Shown: positions 2,174 through 59,667 of the stretch, in pieces
How positions within the stretch are numbered: the stretch's first letter is position 1
Layout: each line of letters begins with the position of its first letter
Origin: Aliikangiella coralliicola
Lineage (GTDB): Bacteria; Pseudomonadota; Gammaproteobacteria; Enterobacterales; Kangiellaceae
Direction: 5' to 3'
DNA: 64,000 bases
Assembly: GCF_007004725.1 (NCBI RefSeq)
Contig: NZ_ML660170.1
Span: 62,001 to 126,000, forward strand
Translations under genes and position numbers: made by a program
The notes under the pieces: model-generated
What the model saw: only the letters and a program-made list of their open reading frames with translations
Told to the model about the DNA's origin: nothing
Databases searched by the model: none

Positions 2174-3124
2174 TCATTTATAATAAGTTAATCTATTCCC
2201 GCCAGCTTTTTTGGCTGCATACATCGCATCGTCTGCATGACTGAGAATTTCATCAATCGAAGTACCATCCTCAGGAAACGACGCAATGCCAATACTCGCG
2301 CCGATATTGATCGGCTTCGAATCAAATAAAATTGGTTTTGAAATTTCAGTAATAATTTCTTCGACTTTATTTTTAATGTCGATAACGCCTTCGATATCGC
2401 TCATCAATATAACGAATTCATCTCCACCGATTCTTGCGAAAGTGTCATACTGCCTGATTATTTTACTAACTCTTGCAGCGACTTTAACCAGTGTAAAATC
2501 TCCAGCTTCGTGGCCTAAATCATCGTTAACTTGCTTAAATCCATCGAGGTCGATCATCAAAACAACCATTCTTTTTTCGAATCGAACAGAACGGTTAATT
2601 TCTTTGGCGAAGGCATCCATTAACTCGCGTCTGTTCGGCAAACCCGTCAGTTCATCATGATGAGCCAAATGCTGTAATCTGATTTCTGCCTCAGTACGCA
2701 TTTTGACTTCTTGTTCCAAAACAGATCTGAGACGCCAGAGATCGAGAAACACCCCAACCTTAGATAACAATATCTCAGGTACTATCGGTTTAGTTAAATA
2801 GTCCGCGGCTCCATATGAGTAGCCCTTGAGGATTTGAGTTTCGTCACGATGAATTGCAGTCACAAAGATTATCGGAATACTTTCAGTTTCTTCTTCGTCT
2901 TTCAATAACTCAGCAACCTCGTAGCCATCCATTTCAGGCATTTGAACATCAAGTAATATTAATGCGAGATTCTTTAATCCCACTGCTTTATGTAGCGCTT
3001 CTGCTCCAGAGGTTGCTTCAACAATATTCGCCGAAAAACTCTCCAGCAAACTTCTTAGAACCACGAGATTCATTCTCATATCATCGACTACCAGAATATC
3101 CGGCCGAATTTCTTTCACTGTCAT
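2174..3124 (-). CDS. Response regulator diguanylate cyclase (REC-GGDEF)
   Basis: 316 residues: REC domain (about 8-125, phospho-acceptor Asp59 in LILLDVQMP) and GGDEF domain (about 155-316). The active-site motif ARIGGDEF (233-237) is complete and is preceded by an RxxD inhibitory site (RQYD, 224-227) at the normal five-residue spacing, so product inhibition by c-di-GMP is expected. The REC domain resembles that of the following REC-GGDEF-EAL gene over its whole length, including the linker FLDLWRLRS...LEQE, which suggests the two genes arose by duplication. It is the first gene of the minus-strand operon; a terminator-like hairpin lies upstream of it. Predicted product: c-di-GMP from two GTP, controlled by phosphorylation. 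Confidence 0.92.
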   Translation of the reverse strand: MTVKEIRPDILVVDDMRMNLVVLRSLLESFSANIVEATSGAEALHKAVGLKNLALILLDVQMPEMDGYEVAELLKDEEETESIPIIFVTAIHRDETQILKGYSYGAADYLTKPIVPEILLSKVGVFLDLWRLRSVLEQEVKMRTEAEIRLQHLAHHDELTGLPNRRELMDAFAKEINRSVRFEKRMVVLMIDLDGFKQVNDDLGHEAGDFTLVKVAARVSKIIRQYDTFARIGGDEFVILMSDIEGVIDIKNKVEEIITEISKPILFDSKPINIGASIGIASFPEDGTSIDEILSHADDAMYAAKKAGGNRLTYYK

Positions 3125-3186
3125 AAATGGAAACTCAAATAATGATTAGATTAGAGTATAGCTCAATATGCCTATTTCGCATTGAG

Positions 3187-3222
3187 CAAAAAACAAGCAG
3201 AAACTCCCACTGTCAGCGGGAG
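3187..3222 (-). terminator. Intrinsic terminator after the DUF1697 gene
   Basis: Read on the minus strand, an arm CTCCCgCTG and its partner CAGtGGGAG (3204-3222) form a hairpin with one internal mismatch, followed by T-rich sequence including a run of six T. It lies 30 bp past the stop of the DUF1697 gene and before the start of the REC-GGDEF gene, separating two transcription units. Confidence 0.6.
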
Positions 3223-3252
3223 GCGAAGACGGGTTTACAGGATGGTTAAATT

Positions 3253-3780
3253 TTAATCCAACATTGACAAGACTTTGCTGACAGTATTCCAGTTTCTCGC
3301 GGTTACTGGAACGCCGATGGCTTTTTCAACTTTGGATGCCAACTTGGAGCGGCCTATTCCGTCTGGGGCGTATAAGTAGAAAAATCTGTCAACCAGCTTA
3401 AATTGTTCTGTCGTTGATTGAATTTTTTTCAAACTATCGAGATTGGGATTGTCCGGTCGCGTCTCTGTGAAAAAGCAATGAAGCAACTTCCCATTTGTGG
3501 CGTCAAAGGGATTATTCTGAATCGCTTGAATATAGTCAGCGCCGCTTATTAACAGGATGCTGGGCGTGAAAGCATATCTTTCATTAATAGCAGCACCTAT
3601 TTCACTCGATAACTTTTCAAAGGATAATCCTTTTCCCTCGAAAACCACGTTACCACTTTGAATATAGGTCTTAACATTTTTAAGGCCCAGGTTTTCAAGT
3701 ATCAAAGTCAGTTCGTTCATCGGCAAAATATTTTTACCACCGACGTTGATACCGCGTAAAAATAGGACATTTTTTTCCAT
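3253..3780 (-). CDS. DUF1697 family protein
   Basis: 175 residues, a typical length for DUF1697. The N-terminus has the family hallmarks: FLRGINVGGKN, then LPMNEL and later YIQSGNVVF. The C-terminus carries the usual GIGRSKLASKVEKA and TARNWNTV motifs. The protein is soluble with no signal peptide. The biochemical function of this widespread family is not established. The gene stands alone on the minus strand, with its own terminator-like hairpin just downstream. Confidence 0.88.
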   Translation of the reverse strand: MEKNVLFLRGINVGGKNILPMNELTLILENLGLKNVKTYIQSGNVVFEGKGLSFEKLSSEIGAAINERYAFTPSILLISGADYIQAIQNNPFDATNGKLLHCFFTETRPDNPNLDSLKKIQSTTEQFKLVDRFFYLYAPDGIGRSKLASKVEKAIGVPVTARNWNTVSKVLSMLD

Positions 3781-3847
3781 AAGGACTCCCAGTCAGCTAT
3801 TTTAGATCATCTATTCCTGGCCACGAAAAAACTAAAAGAGAACCAAC

Positions 3848-4411
3848 TTAATTACCCAAAAGCAATCTCACCCAGAATGCCCAGGTCAGACTAATTCCGA
3901 AAACATAACTTGCCAGGAAAGTGTGGTATCTTCTTGAGTTTGTTAGCAAACCTATAATGCCTAGTACGACAAAATGTAAAACAAAAGGTAAGTAAAATGG
4001 CGGGTTGAGCAATTGACCGCGCAATGCTGTTAACGCTATATCGCTCAGGTTTGAGGCAATAAACAGACCTAAAAACCAGGGTCTGTTTTTCTCAAATATT
4101 AAACCGTAGTCCTGAACAGTATTTTTCTCTATTGGGTATAAAACAACACTCATTAAATAGAAAAAAACGGCCCAAATCACAACCACCAGAAAAAACTCAA
4201 AGCTCCACTCAGTAAAGGTATTGAGCTGAAAGAACACCCACCAATTTAGCACTAAAACCACGAAAAGCGCGAGGCTCCACATAATGTGGACCAGATCCAA
4301 CGAAAACTCACTTCGGCGATTAATCATACGACCAATTCCGGTGAGAATGTTCGCAATACCTAAACCTAAAACTAAAGAAACCAGTACCGCAACGTATTCA
4401 AACTCAGACAT
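3848..4411 (-). CDS. Hypothetical integral membrane protein (about six helices)
   Basis: 187 residues from the ATG at 4411. The frame can be extended eight codons to a TTG at 4435, but the ATG gives MSEFEYVAVLVSLVLGLGI, which leads directly into the first membrane helix. About six hydrophobic segments cover almost the whole chain (near residues 6-26, 40-62, 68-90, 105-122, 134-152 and 160-182). Trp is frequent at helix ends. I recognise no catalytic motif and do not assign a function. It lies 67 bp upstream of the DUF1697 gene on the same strand, and the two might be co-transcribed. Confidence 0.65.
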   Translation of the reverse strand: MSEFEYVAVLVSLVLGLGIANILTGIGRMINRRSEFSLDLVHIMWSLALFVVLVLNWWVFFQLNTFTEWSFEFFLVVVIWAVFFYLMSVVLYPIEKNTVQDYGLIFEKNRPWFLGLFIASNLSDIALTALRGQLLNPPFYLPFVLHFVVLGIIGLLTNSRRYHTFLASYVFGISLTWAFWVRLLLGN

Positions 4412-4963: not shown

Positions 4964-7006
4964 GTGAAAGATGCTTACACGGTTCTCTGCACGAGATTTG
5001 CCTTTGCCAGTTTTATTTCACTGTCCTTTCTAATCGTTATCAATTCAAATCCCGTCATAGCCGATAGTAGAGTGATGGAGGTTGAACAACTATTCGATTT
5101 GCCCTTGGAAGATCTACTCGATGTCAAAGTAAAAAGCCCTTCTCAATTGAATACAGAAATTAACATGGCACCCAGTATTATTGCAGTTATTACCGAGTCT
5201 CAAATTAAAGCCATGGGAGCAAGAACACTATCCGATGTCTTAAAAATGGCGCCGGGCATTCAACTGCTCAACCGTCGCAACGGGCGAGATATGGTTTGGA
5301 TTCGCGGTATTCCCAGCGGCCGTAACACAAAAATCATGTTGCTCATCGACGGTGTTCCCCAGCGTGAAGTTATTTTTGGCGGCTGGTCACCTGACGAGCA
5401 GGTTCAAATTAATAATATTGCCAGAATAGAAGTGATTCGCGGCCCGGGTTCTGCACTTTATGGAGGCGATGCTTATTCTGGATTGATCTCCATCTACACA
5501 AAAGAAAAAGTGCCGCAAAAGACAAATGTAACGGTTGGTGTTTCCAGCTTCGACGGCCAACAGGCAAAGATCAGCACCGGCCATGAATTTGAACAGGCAA
5601 AGTTTTTATTTTCTGCAAGAGCAATGGACCAGGAAGGTTATCAACAGCAAAGAGACAGACGGGGAAACCTCTCCACCCATGATAATAATGTGGAAGCGAC
5701 CAGTTTTACCGCCAAACTACTGAATGAAAACTGGCAAATCGCTTACATTTATGATGACTACACCACTGAATATCCACTCTATTCTTCTCCACAATATAAA
5801 TCTCAGCAATATAGAACCAACAGTTTTTATCTGAAAAACAATCATGAGTGGCGCCAGGTTTATCTGGAAAATCAGCTCTATCGTTACCAGGTAAAACGTT
5901 TTTTTGACAGAACTATCAGAAACGCTGATGAAAGTCTTAACTTCGCGTCTTTTTCACAGTTAGATACGCAACTCACGGGAATTCGTAGTCAGTTGACTTA
6001 TGCCTTTAATCAGCAACACCAAGGGGTATTTGGTGCTGTTTACGAGCGTCGTGCAGTTGACGAGTATCATGAAACGATCACCGTTCGTAATAGTTTGTCT
6101 ACATTGGAATTACAATCGATTATTTTGCGCCAGGGAGACCGAACACCTGAGGCAGATAATTATGCACTTTATGCTCAAACAGAATCGTTATTTCTTGATA
6201 ACGCGTTAGCATTGACTTTGGGCGCTCGAATTGATCACTTTGAAGAATTCGACAATGAAACCAGTCCCAGAGTCGCTCTCACCTATCAGCAAAATGATCA
6301 ATGGTCTGCAAAACTCATCTGGGGCGAAGCTTTTCGGCCACCGACGTTTCTGCAACAATATGAAATTCGCAGCGATGGAAATTCTCCCGGCAATCCATCG
6401 GTAACGCCTGAACTCATTGAAACCTGGGAAACCGAGTTTGTTTATCATTTTGATCTGAAAAATAATCTAAGTATTCGTTACTTCGAAAGTCATTTAAATA
6501 ATTTTATTCAAACGATTGGCGGAGCCGCCTATGAGAACATTGACAAGACAATGCAGGTTCCGGGATTCGAATTAGAATTTAATGGTAAAGTGAAAAAACA
6601 CTGGGAAAACTTTCATGAATTGGGGCTCAGTTTTAATTTTACGCGAGTCAATACCACTGAGGCATCAGTCGCCAAAAACAACGCCAATTTAATTCTATTT
6701 GCTCAAGACAACAATAAATCCCTCTATCTAGGTATTAACTATTTAGACAAACGGAATGCGAGTGACCTTTACCATACGCGTGTCACTATTCCCGAAGTTC
6801 GCGCACAAAATAACAAACAAAGCTATTGGATTTTAGATGCAAACATTCAATTTAAAAACTTGTGGCATTCTTCTTTTCAATTGGAGCTTGGGATCAAAAA
6901 CGTCTTAGATAAACAACACTATAATCCCACCTATGCGCCGGATAGTTATTATGACGTTCGTAAAGAACCGAGAAGCATCTCACTCAACTTAAGCTACCAG
7001 TTTTAA
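4964..7006 (+). CDS. TonB-dependent outer-membrane receptor
   Basis: 680 residues from a GTG start; an AAAGG about 12 bases upstream is a plausible ribosome site. A signal peptide (hydrophobic segment about 12-32, cleaved near VIADS) precedes a plug domain (about 60-185) with the usual features: ITESQIKAMGARTLSDVLKMAPGI, then WIRGI, LLIDGVP, RIEVIRGPGSALYGG and ISIYTKE. The rest is a beta-barrel with alternating aromatic strands and a terminal Phe (SLNLSYQF) typical of BAM substrates. It resembles the BtuB/CirA-like group. The substrate is unknown; no transport operon, TonB or siderophore gene is adjacent. It ends 44 bp from the convergent nnrS gene. Confidence 0.92.
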   Translation: MKDAYTVLCTRFAFASFISLSFLIVINSNPVIADSRVMEVEQLFDLPLEDLLDVKVKSPSQLNTEINMAPSIIAVITESQIKAMGARTLSDVLKMAPGIQLLNRRNGRDMVWIRGIPSGRNTKIMLLIDGVPQREVIFGGWSPDEQVQINNIARIEVIRGPGSALYGGDAYSGLISIYTKEKVPQKTNVTVGVSSFDGQQAKISTGHEFEQAKFLFSARAMDQEGYQQQRDRRGNLSTHDNNVEATSFTAKLLNENWQIAYIYDDYTTEYPLYSSPQYKSQQYRTNSFYLKNNHEWRQVYLENQLYRYQVKRFFDRTIRNADESLNFASFSQLDTQLTGIRSQLTYAFNQQHQGVFGAVYERRAVDEYHETITVRNSLSTLELQSIILRQGDRTPEADNYALYAQTESLFLDNALALTLGARIDHFEEFDNETSPRVALTYQQNDQWSAKLIWGEAFRPPTFLQQYEIRSDGNSPGNPSVTPELIETWETEFVYHFDLKNNLSIRYFESHLNNFIQTIGGAAYENIDKTMQVPGFELEFNGKVKKHWENFHELGLSFNFTRVNTTEASVAKNNANLILFAQDNNKSLYLGINYLDKRNASDLYHTRVTIPEVRAQNNKQSYWILDANIQFKNLWHSSFQLELGIKNVLDKQHYNPTYAPDSYYDVRKEPRSISLNLSYQF

Positions 7007-56697: not shown

Positions 56698-56711
56698 TTG
56701 ACTCGGATCAA
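56698..56711. promoter_or_regulatory. FNR/Anr-like box upstream of ubiT
   Basis: TTGAC-TCGG-ATCAA: FNR consensus (TTGAT-N4-ATCAA) with one mismatch. The centre is about 68 bp upstream of the ubiT ATG. Confidence 0.65.
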
Positions 56712-56772
56712 AGCTTTTCCCTCACCACAGCTTATACTCCCTAGTATTCACTAAAACAATAACACCAAACTA

Positions 56773-57312
56773 ATGACAACACACCCGGTAAAATTCCCAA
56801 CCTCTCTCTTCAGCAAAAATATTCATCAATCGCTTAGTTCCATAGCTCAGTGTCTTTTCCAGCCCAAAAAACTGGTTAAAATGGTCACGCGTTTTCCAAT
56901 GGCGCTCAATACGAACCTGGTAAGCAAACTTTGTAATCGTATTTTTGATGAACAAATTCATGAAGGAGATTTTGATATTTTAAAAAATAGAACGGTACAA
57001 ATTAGTTTTTCAGATGCAAATTTGTCTATCGCATTTAGTTTCGACAACAATAAAATACACTGTAAACATTTTAGTGAGATAAAAAACTCTGCAGACGCAG
57101 ATCTATCAATAATCACAGCGGACGCAATTCGTCTTATCAAACAGGAAGTTGATCCTGATACATTATTTTTTCAACGTCGATTAAAAATTAGTGGTGACAC
57201 AGAGCTTGCCCACCATATTAAAAATACAGTTGATACATTAAACCCAGAGTTAATTCCGCCTGTAATAATGAAATTAATATCAGACTATCAATCGCGCATA
57301 TTAGTCGACTAA
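56773..57312 (+). CDS. ubiT: UbiT-like SCP2 domain protein (oxygen-independent ubiquinone synthesis)
   Basis: 179 residues, close to E. coli UbiT (YhbT, 174 aa). An SCP2 lipid-binding domain covers most of the chain. The family motif is in DPDTLFFQRRLKISGDTELAHHIK, which is diagnostic for UbiT. UbiT is an accessory factor that holds the isoprenoid quinone intermediates in the oxygen-independent pathway together with UbiU and UbiV. It is transcribed convergently to the ubiV/ubiU operon, ending 89 bp from the end of ubiV. No clear ribosome site before the ATG. An FNR-like box upstream matches the low-oxygen role. Confidence 0.9.
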   Translation: MTTHPVKFPTSLFSKNIHQSLSSIAQCLFQPKKLVKMVTRFPMALNTNLVSKLCNRIFDEQIHEGDFDILKNRTVQISFSDANLSIAFSFDNNKIHCKHFSEIKNSADADLSIITADAIRLIKQEVDPDTLFFQRRLKISGDTELAHHIKNTVDTLNPELIPPVIMKLISDYQSRILVD

Positions 57313-57400: not shown

Positions 57401-58285
57401 TTAAGAGACGAATTTCATTCCCTCTATTTGCAACCAGTAACCATTGCAGAACTCGTAATCCTGTGCCAAATATGTAGAACTGCTTTGAGTCTTTTTATTG
57501 ATTGAATTGCTTAAGACATCCACAGCCTGTAACGTGTCCTCTGCGCTAACAGGAACGATTCTCGCAATATCAATCTTCGCTTCCTTGAGTTCAGACCAAC
57601 GATTAATCAAGTTACTCACTTTCGCAGACTGAGTTTGAATGCCGTTTATTTGAGCAAAGCTGTCGCCATCTTGCGTTTTTACCAGAATCCCCTGCTCGTC
57701 ATTCAAGCATTTAAACTGACAATTATCTTTATCAAGTTGATGATGTCTGGCAGTAAAGCAACGCGCAGAATAAGCTAACGGCATCCGACCGAAAACCTGG
57801 TATTCAACTTCAACTCCAAGCTTGTCGGCCAATGAAACCATAGGGATGATATCTCGCTGCCCAAGTTCTACCGGGACACACCACCGTTTCATACCAAGCC
57901 GACTTAGCCTTGAAAAACTCTGGTTGTTATAGACATTGATCGCACAACCAGTCACAAATGAGTTGCCATTTTCTGAGGCAACCTGAACCGCCGCCATGTC
58001 GTTAGCTTCGATTAGAAAATCCTTTTGTCTGGCAATTTTTGTCAGGTATTTCAGTTCAGACTCCGCTTCAAGCAAAGTCAAAGTCGATAAAACGACTTGT
58101 TTACCGGAATCACGTAAAACCTCCGCGATTTCTATCCAGTCAGAAAATTTCATTGAACGTCGCTTGGAACAAACCGTTTCCCCCAAATAAACAATATCAA
58201 CTGGCGTTTGAGAGAGCGCAGAATAAAATGCACCGTAAGCTTCTTTTGACCAGAAATAAGGGACGCTGGCTACCGATATTTTCAT
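57401..58285 (-). CDS. ubiV: UbiV, U32-family [4Fe-4S] protein for oxygen-independent ubiquinone hydroxylation
   Basis: 294 residues. A 364-residue frame opens far upstream inside ubiU, but the right start is the ATG at 58285: AAGGAG is six bases upstream and the protein then begins MKISVASVPYFW like E. coli UbiV. Cysteines at 39, 176, 189 and 193 have the E. coli UbiV pattern for a [4Fe-4S] cluster (39, 180, 193, 197). It contains YLGETVCSKRR. With UbiU it hydroxylates the quinone ring without oxygen, using prephenate as oxygen donor. It is 10 bp after ubiU in the same operon. The C-terminus NGYWLQIEGMKFV is typical. Confidence 0.95.
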   Translation of the reverse strand: MKISVASVPYFWSKEAYGAFYSALSQTPVDIVYLGETVCSKRRSMKFSDWIEIAEVLRDSGKQVVLSTLTLLEAESELKYLTKIARQKDFLIEANDMAAVQVASENGNSFVTGCAINVYNNQSFSRLSRLGMKRWCVPVELGQRDIIPMVSLADKLGVEVEYQVFGRMPLAYSARCFTARHHQLDKDNCQFKCLNDEQGILVKTQDGDSFAQINGIQTQSAKVSNLINRWSELKEAKIDIARIVPVSAEDTLQAVDVLSNSINKKTQSSSTYLAQDYEFCNGYWLQIEGMKFVS

Positions 58286-58295
58286 CATCAACTCC

Positions 58296-59291
58296 TTATT
58301 GCCAACTTCTTTCGTAGGCACCAATGGTTGTTTGCTTGCCCTCAGCCAGGTCAGCCAAATCCTCAGTGACAATTTGCCGAGTTTTTCCGTCAGCATCTTT
58401 ATTACTGAGGCTATCAATTGCCTGCCGCCAAGCGCGTGTGACCTGAGTGACGTAGGCAGGGCTTCGTTGACGTCCTTCAATTTTAATCGCAGCAACGCCG
58501 GCAGATTCTAACTGGGGAAGAATATCCATGGTGTTTAAACTAGTCGGCTCTTCTAGCGCATGTTCAACCTGCCCATGAACTTCAAATCGCCCTTTGCACA
58601 GCGTAGGATAACCAGCATTTTCATTTTCACGAAAACGATCAATCAGTAAGCCGTTCAATCGCGATTCAAGTTGCGCCCCCTTATCCTCCCACTCAACATA
58701 AGCGGCTGGAGAACACACCCCCTGTGTATTTGGAGATTCGCCCGTCATATAAGATGACAGGTAACAGCGTCCTTCTGCCATAATGCAAAGGCTGCCAAAA
58801 CCAAATACCTCGATTTCCACCGGCGCGTTTTTAGCTAGTTTTTCGACTTGAGCTAATGATAAAACCCGCGGTAATACGGCTCGCCGAATGGCAAATTGTT
58901 GATGATAAAAATTTAGCGACTCCAGGTTTGTGGATGATGCCTGAACTGACAAATGAATAGGAAAATCGCTAGAGCGGGATCGAATGTAATCCATCACACC
59001 AATGTCAGCAACAATTAACGTATCAATACCAGAACCCATTGCCTGATCAACAGCATTAGTCCAGCGACTCCACTTTTGTTCTCTGGGAAAAGTATTAATC
59101 GCGCAGTAAACTTTGCAACCTTGTTGGTGTGCGTAATCGATAGCCTTGGAGATCTGTTTTTCAGAAAAGTTTAAACCGGAAAAATGACGAGCGTTGGTTT
59201 CATTCTTAAGGCCGATGTAAACCGCATTGGCCCCGTGATCAACCGCCTTAATTAGCGATTGATAATTCCCTGCCGGACAAATCAGCTCCAT
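58296..59291 (-). CDS. ubiU: UbiU, U32-family [4Fe-4S] protein for oxygen-independent ubiquinone hydroxylation
   Basis: 331 residues, the same length as E. coli UbiU (YhbU). Four cluster cysteines are at 169, 176, 193 and 232, exactly the E. coli numbers: FGSLCIMAEGRCYLSS, GVCSPAA, YPTLCKGRFEV. The N-terminus MELICPAGNYQSLIKAVDHGANAVYIGLK is typical of U32 proteins. It forms a heterodimer with UbiV. It begins 2 bp after the stop of the chorismate mutase gene and is followed by ubiV after 10 bp, so the three form one transcript. Prephenate, the reported oxygen donor for UbiUV, is the product of chorismate mutase. Confidence 0.96.
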   Translation of the reverse strand: MELICPAGNYQSLIKAVDHGANAVYIGLKNETNARHFSGLNFSEKQISKAIDYAHQQGCKVYCAINTFPREQKWSRWTNAVDQAMGSGIDTLIVADIGVMDYIRSRSSDFPIHLSVQASSTNLESLNFYHQQFAIRRAVLPRVLSLAQVEKLAKNAPVEIEVFGFGSLCIMAEGRCYLSSYMTGESPNTQGVCSPAAYVEWEDKGAQLESRLNGLLIDRFRENENAGYPTLCKGRFEVHGQVEHALEEPTSLNTMDILPQLESAGVAAIKIEGRQRSPAYVTQVTRAWRQAIDSLSNKDADGKTRQIVTEDLADLAEGKQTTIGAYERSWQ

Positions 59292-59293
59292 AG

Positions 59294-59599
59294 CTAACCC
59301 TCATGTTCAGCTCGGTATAAAAGTTGCTGATTAAGTCCTGCACGAAGTATCGCGTGAAAAATATTGGCCATATCCACTGACTGATAATGAGTCGGATTAT
59401 CCCGAGTAAACTTTTCGATAATGTTATTTTCTCGGCTACTATCGTAGATGGATAAATTTTGACGGCATTTTATTTCAGCGATTTGCTCGACACATTTTGA
59501 TCGTAACGTCAGCAATTGGATAATTTTCTCATCAATCTGATCGATTTCCCTTCTGACATCGAATAATTCGCTATCGTTCGAAGACTCAACTTGAGACAT
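59294..59599 (-). CDS. AroQ-type chorismate mutase, first gene of the ubiU-ubiV operon
   Basis: 101 residues, a stand-alone AroQ fold. All active-site residues of E. coli chorismate mutase have counterparts: Arg in VRREIDQID, Arg in LRSKCVEQIAEIK with the following Lys, Asp-x2-Arg-Glu in YDSSREN, and Gln in LNQQLLY. It should convert chorismate to prephenate; a related lyase role (isochorismate pyruvate lyase) is less likely because the catalytic set is complete. There is no fused dehydratase or dehydrogenase and no aro/phe/tyr gene is near. It stops 2 bp before ubiU and its promoter has an FNR-like box. Its likely job is to supply prephenate to UbiUV. Confidence 0.88.
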   Translation of the reverse strand: MSQVESSNDSELFDVRREIDQIDEKIIQLLTLRSKCVEQIAEIKCRQNLSIYDSSRENNIIEKFTRDNPTHYQSVDMANIFHAILRAGLNQQLLYRAEHEG

Positions 59600-59653
59600 A
59601 TTTACACCTGATTAAAAGTGAGTTTATTCTAATGATACCAGATGGTATCAAAT

Positions 59654-59667
59654 TGATTTGGGTCAAG
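59654..59667. promoter_or_regulatory. FNR/Anr-like box upstream of the chorismate mutase-ubiU-ubiV operon
   Basis: TTGAT-TTGG-GTCAA, one mismatch from TTGAT-N4-ATCAA and the mirror image of the ubiT box class. The centre is about 61 bp before the chorismate mutase ATG. Confidence 0.65.

Follow-up and report, generated by a model that had tools for sequence, protein, structure and literature searches.

The window, by which we mean the whole 64-kb stretch of DNA analysed here (from a genome of 7.04 Mb, G000), carries three genes on its minus strand in the order aroQ-ubiU-ubiV, with aroQ as the first gene of the operon, and a convergent ubiT on the plus strand (Table 1). The ubiU, ubiV and ubiT genes are all present at the locus and each scores above the cut-off of its NCBIfam equivalog model, ubiV having been scored as a longer frame (57401-58495). 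The first-pass annotation had placed a stand-alone chorismate mutase (CM) of 101 aa in a ubiU-ubiV operon, stopping 2 bp before ubiU, and both observations hold: aroQ has an ATG start, its stop codon occupies 59294-59296, and two nucleotides separate this codon from the ubiU ATG at 59291.

Table 1. Genes of the aroQ-ubiU-ubiV and ubiT region and the control elements predicted for them.
Feature	Position	Strand	Description and basis
ubiT box, FNR/Anr-type, TTGACTCGGATCAA (predicted)	56698..56711	+	upstream of ubiT; exact TTGATNNNNRTCAA on - strand
ubiT -10 hexamer TATACT (predicted)	56733..56738	+	21 nt downstream of ubiT box
ubiT	56773..57312	+	179 aa, SCP2-domain accessory factor; NCBIfam NF047962, 111 bits (cut-off 46.9)
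ubiV	57401..58285	-	294 aa; NCBIfam NF047965, 352 bits (cut-off 275)
ubiU	58296..59291	-	331 aa, U32 Fe-S hydroxylase subunit; NCBIfam NF047963, 541 bits (cut-off 440)
aroQ	59294..59599	-	stand-alone AroQ-type CM, 101 aa; CM_2 profile, catalytic residues, gap to ubiU
Shine-Dalgarno-like AGGTG (putative)	59605..59609	-	ahead of aroQ ATG; sequence reading
aroQ -10 hexamer TAGAAT (predicted)	59626..59631	-	21 nt downstream of box
aroQ box, FNR/Anr-type, TTGACCCAAATCAA (predicted)	59653..59666	-	exact TTGATNNNNRTCAA on + strand; 53 nt upstream of aroQ ATG

The aroQ product matches the Pfam CM_2 profile (E 1.8e-17; 63.7 bits, cut-off 27), scores under the cut-off of each NCBIfam CM model that it matched, and has as its nearest PDB chain by sequence 2d8d, the mutase portion of a DAHP synthase-CM protein (E 1.2e-8). 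The catalytic positions, which we take to be R11, R28, K39, D48, R51, E52, S84 and Q88 in E. coli PheA numbering, are kept at seven of eight places in the alignment: R16, R33, K44, D53, R56, E57 and Q92 correspond to PheA R11, R28, K39, D48, R51, E52 and Q88, and Gly replaces S84, which amends the earlier description of all active-site residues as retained. Among all 11 CMs encoded directly before ubiU (see below) the catalytic residues are likewise kept, except that S84 is Ser or Gly and D48 is Cys in four. These matches point to a cytosolic AroQ-type chorismate mutase with presumed mutase activity.

Assignment as a secreted AroQ-gamma enzyme was rejected, as AroQ is 101 aa long and has no apparent signal when read by eye; the AroQ-gamma-looking frame of 251 aa in the same genome is a separate gene (C2:168762). 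Isochorismate lyase was rejected as well, its model giving AroQ 30 bits, less than most CM models.

Predicted FNR-type control of aroQ

The FNR/Anr consensus TTGATNNNNRTCAA has only two exact matches in the window, one upstream of aroQ and one upstream of ubiT. Shuffled windows hold a mean of 0.62 exact matches and reach two in 19 of 100 shuffles, so it is the placing of the boxes, rather than their number, that counts. A TTGAYNNNNRTCAA box lies upstream of aroQ in the window and in all ten relatives with the aroQ-ubiU pair, and a TATAAT-like hexamer with one mismatch follows 21 or 22 nt past the box in 11/11 of these loci, spacings of 18-25 nt having been tried with the best taken per locus and the boxes themselves chosen among the best candidates of the box search. 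By chance alone, a locus would show a hexamer with no more than two mismatches at either of two given spacings with a probability of 0.12. The boxes of G001 and G018 have two mismatches from TTGATNNNNATCAA and are, taken alone, indistinguishable from those of shuffled sequence.

Together these elements predict an FNR-type promoter upstream of aroQ, to which FNR would bind. Chobert 2024, in the sections available to us, describes an FNR site upstream of ubiU (PMC11707229); with aroQ at the head of the operon in the window, the predicted site of that kind here sits upstream of aroQ.

aroQ, ubiU and tyrosine synthesis in the Kangiellaceae

UbiU was found in 14 of the 37 Kangiellaceae genomes, and in 11 of the 14 aroQ lies directly upstream of ubiU (G000, G001, G005, G018, G026, G029-G032, G034 and G036). 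A family-wide search for AroQ with one protein query (E 1e-3) divides the 37 genomes into 12 with both UbiU and AroQ, two with UbiU only, one with AroQ only and 22 with neither (Fisher 6e-7, relatedness ignored); this search missed the CM domain of the G019 TyrA, which a profile found, so divergent AroQ proteins may escape it in genomes that lack UbiU. Within genus g5 the aroQ-ubiU pair is present in 7/7 UbiU-positive genomes and the same AroQ in 0/10 UbiU-negative ones (Fisher 5e-5, relatedness again ignored), and a second stand-alone CM of ~92-116 aa occurs in all seven of the former and four of the latter.

The exceptions are of three kinds. G002 and G019 carry ubiUVT but no AroQ of this kind, and G019 has a divergent UbiU (439 bits to the window's UbiU); in G003 AroQ and UbiU are both present, unlinked, on separate contigs; and G004 has an intact AroQ with UbiU absent and with ubiV and ubiT also missing at the locus. 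A profile scan of the UbiU surroundings in G002, G003 and G019 gave no CM. The link within the family is strong but imperfect, and AroQ is not an obligatory partner of UbiU. The one-protein search, which may miss distant CMs, gave no AroQ match beside UbiU in 15 UbiU-positive genomes of the order that belong to other families. The UbiU of G213, from another family, scores 619 bits to that of the window, as close as the UbiUs of the window's own genus; it has no CM beside it and is possibly a transfer.

The window's genome holds three CM_2 genes: aroQ, the 251-aa AroQ-gamma-like frame, and a PheA-DAHP synthase fusion in which PheA (CM-prephenate dehydratase) and a DAHP synthase domain share one 716-aa frame (G000:C7 2515-4662). 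TyrA is without a CM domain in four AroQ-positive genomes (G000, G001, G004 and G005) and in G006, a genome 82% complete in which no AroQ was found. These five CM-less TyrAs of the window's genus keep a short helical-looking N-terminal remnant. The TyrA of G002 (UbiU-positive, no AroQ) has its CM domain, as does that of G018, from a neighbouring genus, in which AroQ also precedes ubiU; there was no TyrA match in G003 and no PDH_N (TyrA) match in the 14 genomes of genus g5 that were searched.

Such a distribution raises the possibility that AroQ is the general or tyrosine-branch CM of the lineage, replacing the lost TyrA CM, and that its place next to ubiU is incidental or a convenience of the promoter. 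The five TyrAs without a CM, set against the CM-bearing TyrA of AroQ-less G002, agree with this, and with the window's own TyrA in that state aromatic synthesis alone could account for the retention of AroQ. G004, moreover, has lost both UbiU and the FNR box and still retains its AroQ: the protein is 66% identical to that of G005, against 62% for G000, which indicates no faster change despite the loss of UbiU. G018, however, speaks against the replacement account by having both AroQ before ubiU and a CM-bearing TyrA, and in genus g5 AroQ tracks UbiU despite the second stand-alone CM in all seven genomes. A strictly FNR-driven gene would also be off in air, yet tyrosine is needed then too, and replacement leaves the CM-UbiT fusions and other arrangements described below unexplained. 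We consider it improbable that AroQ is nothing but a general or tyrosine-branch CM.

The loss of the TyrA CM in the genus and the persistence of AroQ without UbiU in G004 do suggest that AroQ of the window's genus probably also serves tyrosine synthesis; AroQ would first have been tied to ubiUV and later have taken over the tyrosine branch. The first-pass annotation had proposed a dedicated local source of prephenate. Local it appears to be, and ties between CM and ubi genes recur, but "dedicated" is too strong a word for a gene whose genus has lost the TyrA CM and which G004 keeps without UbiU.

Chorismate mutases at ubi loci outside the family

UbiU was present in 92 of 369 genomes sampled from the class. 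The surroundings of ubiU were scanned for 4 kb on each side (1.5 kb for twelve genomes, and some ended at contig ends), and a CM was found beside ubiT or ubiV in six other genomes belonging to six further families. Four of these CMs are head-to-head with ubiT (G100, G346, G240 and G293); G207 has ubiT and the CM codirectional with ubiU divergent, and G097 has a CM beside ubiV that is without its first helix. The UbiT proteins that neighbour such a CM, and likewise that of G097, score above the NCBIfam UbiT cut-off. All four head-to-head loci have an FNR-type box upstream of the CM, on its ubiT side; that of G346 has two mismatches and is matched by 6% of shuffles. The box of G207 is exact and lies ahead of ubiU. 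The G097 CM is the only CM_2 found in that 1.5-Mb genome; a helix similar to the missing first one appears at the C-terminal end of that frame (2503-3030 / 5543-6070), and we read the protein as rearranged or broken.

CM_2 was searched genome-wide in 79 of the 91 other UbiU-positive class genomes, 12 having been dropped for completeness <90% or contamination >=5%; the UbiU surroundings of these 12, some with 1.5-kb flanks or cut by contig ends, held no CM. Of the 82 matches in the 79 genomes, 72 fall in frames at least the size of PheA. Eight are in short frames (<=200 aa), and six of these, the CMs just described, are at ubiUVT. Fusions of CM and UbiT of ~305 aa are encoded ~4 kb from ubiU in G072 and G224. 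UbiU was present in 122 of the 398 genomes of a phylum sample, and CM_2 was searched in 80 of these (11 were covered separately, 16 dropped for quality and 15 of the same order omitted). In genus g376, outside the class, a CM directly follows ubiV in all three genomes sampled, and a box search of these ubiUV-CM loci found no FNR box; G686 has a CM-UbiT fusion that is not on the ubiU contig. The UbiU frame of G695 (2403-4037) is 544 aa long, with ~217 residues ahead of UbiU in which neither UbiT nor any other NCBIfam domain was found.

In total, 11/159 UbiU-positive genomes outside the family, representing eight families, have a CM no more than 5 kb from ubiU. Random spread of the 193 CM matches would give 0.59 such genomes, a figure that depends on a 5-kb limit and a mean genome size of 3.6 Mb, both picked after the places were known. 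Chance adjacency of CM and ubi genes is unlikely because the link recurs. In the majority of the UbiU-positive genomes sampled the locus lacks a CM, and there general CMs would suffice. The proposition that short stand-alone CMs are commoner in UbiU-positive genomes was rejected: there are eight in 7/79 of these (plus the two fusions) and eight in 6/80 UbiU-negative controls, the latter counted as negative by absence from the class positives (17 listed negative, the rest by exclusion) and without a quality filter.

The Xanthomonadaceae, the family of G072, were searched with a CM-UbiT fusion query, scoring up to 20 first-look candidates per genome. Matches were found in 30 of 119 genomes, and 29 of the 30 have both domains; G897 has the SCP2 part only, and in G893 the CM part scores a marginal 11.6 bits. 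Named carriers of the fusion are Pseudoxanthomonas daejeonensis, P. jiangsuensis, P. koreensis, Xanthomonas sp. XNM01 and Stenotrophomonas sp. SY1. Residues R11, R28, D48, R51 and E52 are present in 29/29 fusions, K39 in 28/29 and Q88 in 27/29. The SCP2 part is UbiT by NCBIfam in the two fusions tested (116 and 118 bits, cut-off 46.9). An FNR-type box with no more than two mismatches was found upstream of only 11/29 fusions. The G850 match has one internal TGA, yet a stop-free frame of 305 aa covers most of it.

The CMs next to ubiT in five families keep the Arg, Lys and Glu residues and have, by eye, no Gln at the position of Q88, short of which the profile alignment stops; their activity is for this reason doubtful. 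AroQ-delta enzymes need a partner for activity, and by analogy these CMs may need one also. The missing Gln, and the recurrence of UbiT, an SCP2 accessory factor, as the partner of the CM in several families, would suit a second account in which ubi-linked CMs mainly bind, as a scaffold or a sensor of chorismate or prephenate in an anaerobic Ubi complex, and are not catalysts. Retention of the catalytic residues in 11/11 CMs of aroQ-ubiU loci (S84 and D48 apart) and in nearly all 29 fusions speaks against this, and we regard a purely binding role as very unlikely.

A CM is thus tied to the ubi genes in four ways: as a gene before ubiU, beside ubiT or after ubiV, or as a domain fused to UbiT. 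A CM tree keeps the CMs of aroQ-ubiU loci apart from the fusions (support 0.96) and from the ubiUV-CM group (0.95), which are also distinct from each other; with 82 columns the tree is too short for dating events and was used for group separation alone. The spread of the four arrangements across different families and classes makes at least three independent recruitments of CM likely.

Proposed prephenate supply to UbiUV, and known systems

Prephenate is given as the oxygen donor of UbiUV, after a 2024 PNAS paper, in the available sections of PMC11574389, which add that direct evidence of catalysis by U32 proteins is still wanting; it had been proposed earlier as a candidate donor in PMC10470549, also available in part. 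The sections available of PMC6747719 and PMC11707229 deal with the architecture of ubiTUV loci, with FNR sites and with a fusion of UbiT to UbiU (Zymomonas), and hold no mention of CM. The term chorismate mutase is absent from the main text of PMC11707229 and PMC13386864, and the part of PMC12783734 at hand contains nothing on CM. A literature search, outside of which lay supplementary tables and the 2024 PNAS paper, found no paper joining CM with ubiUVT.

We favour, with a probability of about three in four, the reading that AroQ under FNR control supplies prephenate to UbiUV locally and is dual-purpose in the window's genus. AroQ would be switched on by FNR without oxygen, jointly with ubiU and ubiV, and would turn chorismate into prephenate beside UbiUV, which would in turn take from prephenate the oxygen with which the ring is hydroxylated when ubiquinone is made anaerobically; that AroQ prephenate flows to UbiUV is presumed. 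Several lineages would have linked a CM to the pathway by different routes, a pattern to be expected if the pathway can run short of locally made prephenate, and in the window's genus the TyrA CM domain would have decayed with aroQ present, AroQ probably becoming dual-purpose. The sequences themselves show the order of the genes, the promoter-like elements, the fused domains, the conservation of catalytic residues and the decay of TyrA, while the donor role of prephenate is taken from the literature; the repeated recruitment of CM is what favours prephenate supply for UbiUV.

The proposal of the first-pass annotation depended on co-occurrence outside this strain, which is found in 11/14 UbiU-positive genomes of the family, in 11/159 outside it and, as complete fusions, in 29/30 UbiT matches of the Xanthomonadaceae. 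This comparative evidence largely bears out the guess of prephenate supply, with recurrence wider than had been proposed. The idea that CM extends the pathway finds support in its recurrence in several lineages, but not as a general rule, most sampled UbiU loci being without a CM.

A bolder form of local supply makes CM a working part of an anaerobic ubiquinone metabolon: AroQ docked to UbiUV, or the CM domain of a quinone-holding UbiT, would hand prephenate to the UbiUV Fe-S centres, and several independent recruitments would have been followed, in the window's genus, by the TyrA CM becoming dispensable. We put this forward tentatively, with the odds somewhat against it. It is, by comparison, hardly credible that an anaerobic CM serves to drain chorismate or to feed other prephenate users at low oxygen, such as TrhP and CmoA: TrhP-mediated hydroxylation does depend on prephenate, which both proteins require (PMC6599085, in the part available), and second U32 frames of 440-464 aa that score below the UbiU cut-off, presumably TrhP, occur in the window's genome and its relatives, but the CMs found sit at ubiU, ubiV or ubiT in this survey centred on ubi loci.

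The claim that prephenate acts as an organic oxygen donor is recent and surprising. Repeated ties of CM to ubiU, ubiV or ubiT, fusion included, are genomic evidence for prephenate chemistry beyond E. coli, and hint at CM as an optional fourth component of the anaerobic ubiquinone pathway; the CM-UbiT fusions are ready-made proteins for testing substrate hand-over.

Three known systems are comparable. The locus shares with the E. coli UbiT-UbiU-UbiV pathway, as described in the available sections of Pelosi 2019 (PMC6747719) and Chobert 2024 (PMC11707229), the ubiU-ubiV pair, a nearby ubiT on the opposite strand and FNR-type boxes; it differs in that a CM gene heads the ubiUV operon here, and elsewhere CM lies beside or is fused to UbiT. 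The aroQ product has the family and the catalytic residues of AroQ-type CMs (PF01817), which include the PheA and TyrA CM domains, stand-alone AroQ and DAHP synthase-CM; unlike those linked to aromatic amino acid genes, this aroQ has a predicted FNR-type promoter and is linked to ubiUV. In the E. coli CM-prephenate dehydrogenase TyrA and CM-prephenate dehydratase PheA a CM is likewise tied to a consumer of prephenate, whereas the presumed consumer here is UbiUV, and the fusion partner in the Xanthomonadaceae is the lipid-binding UbiT.
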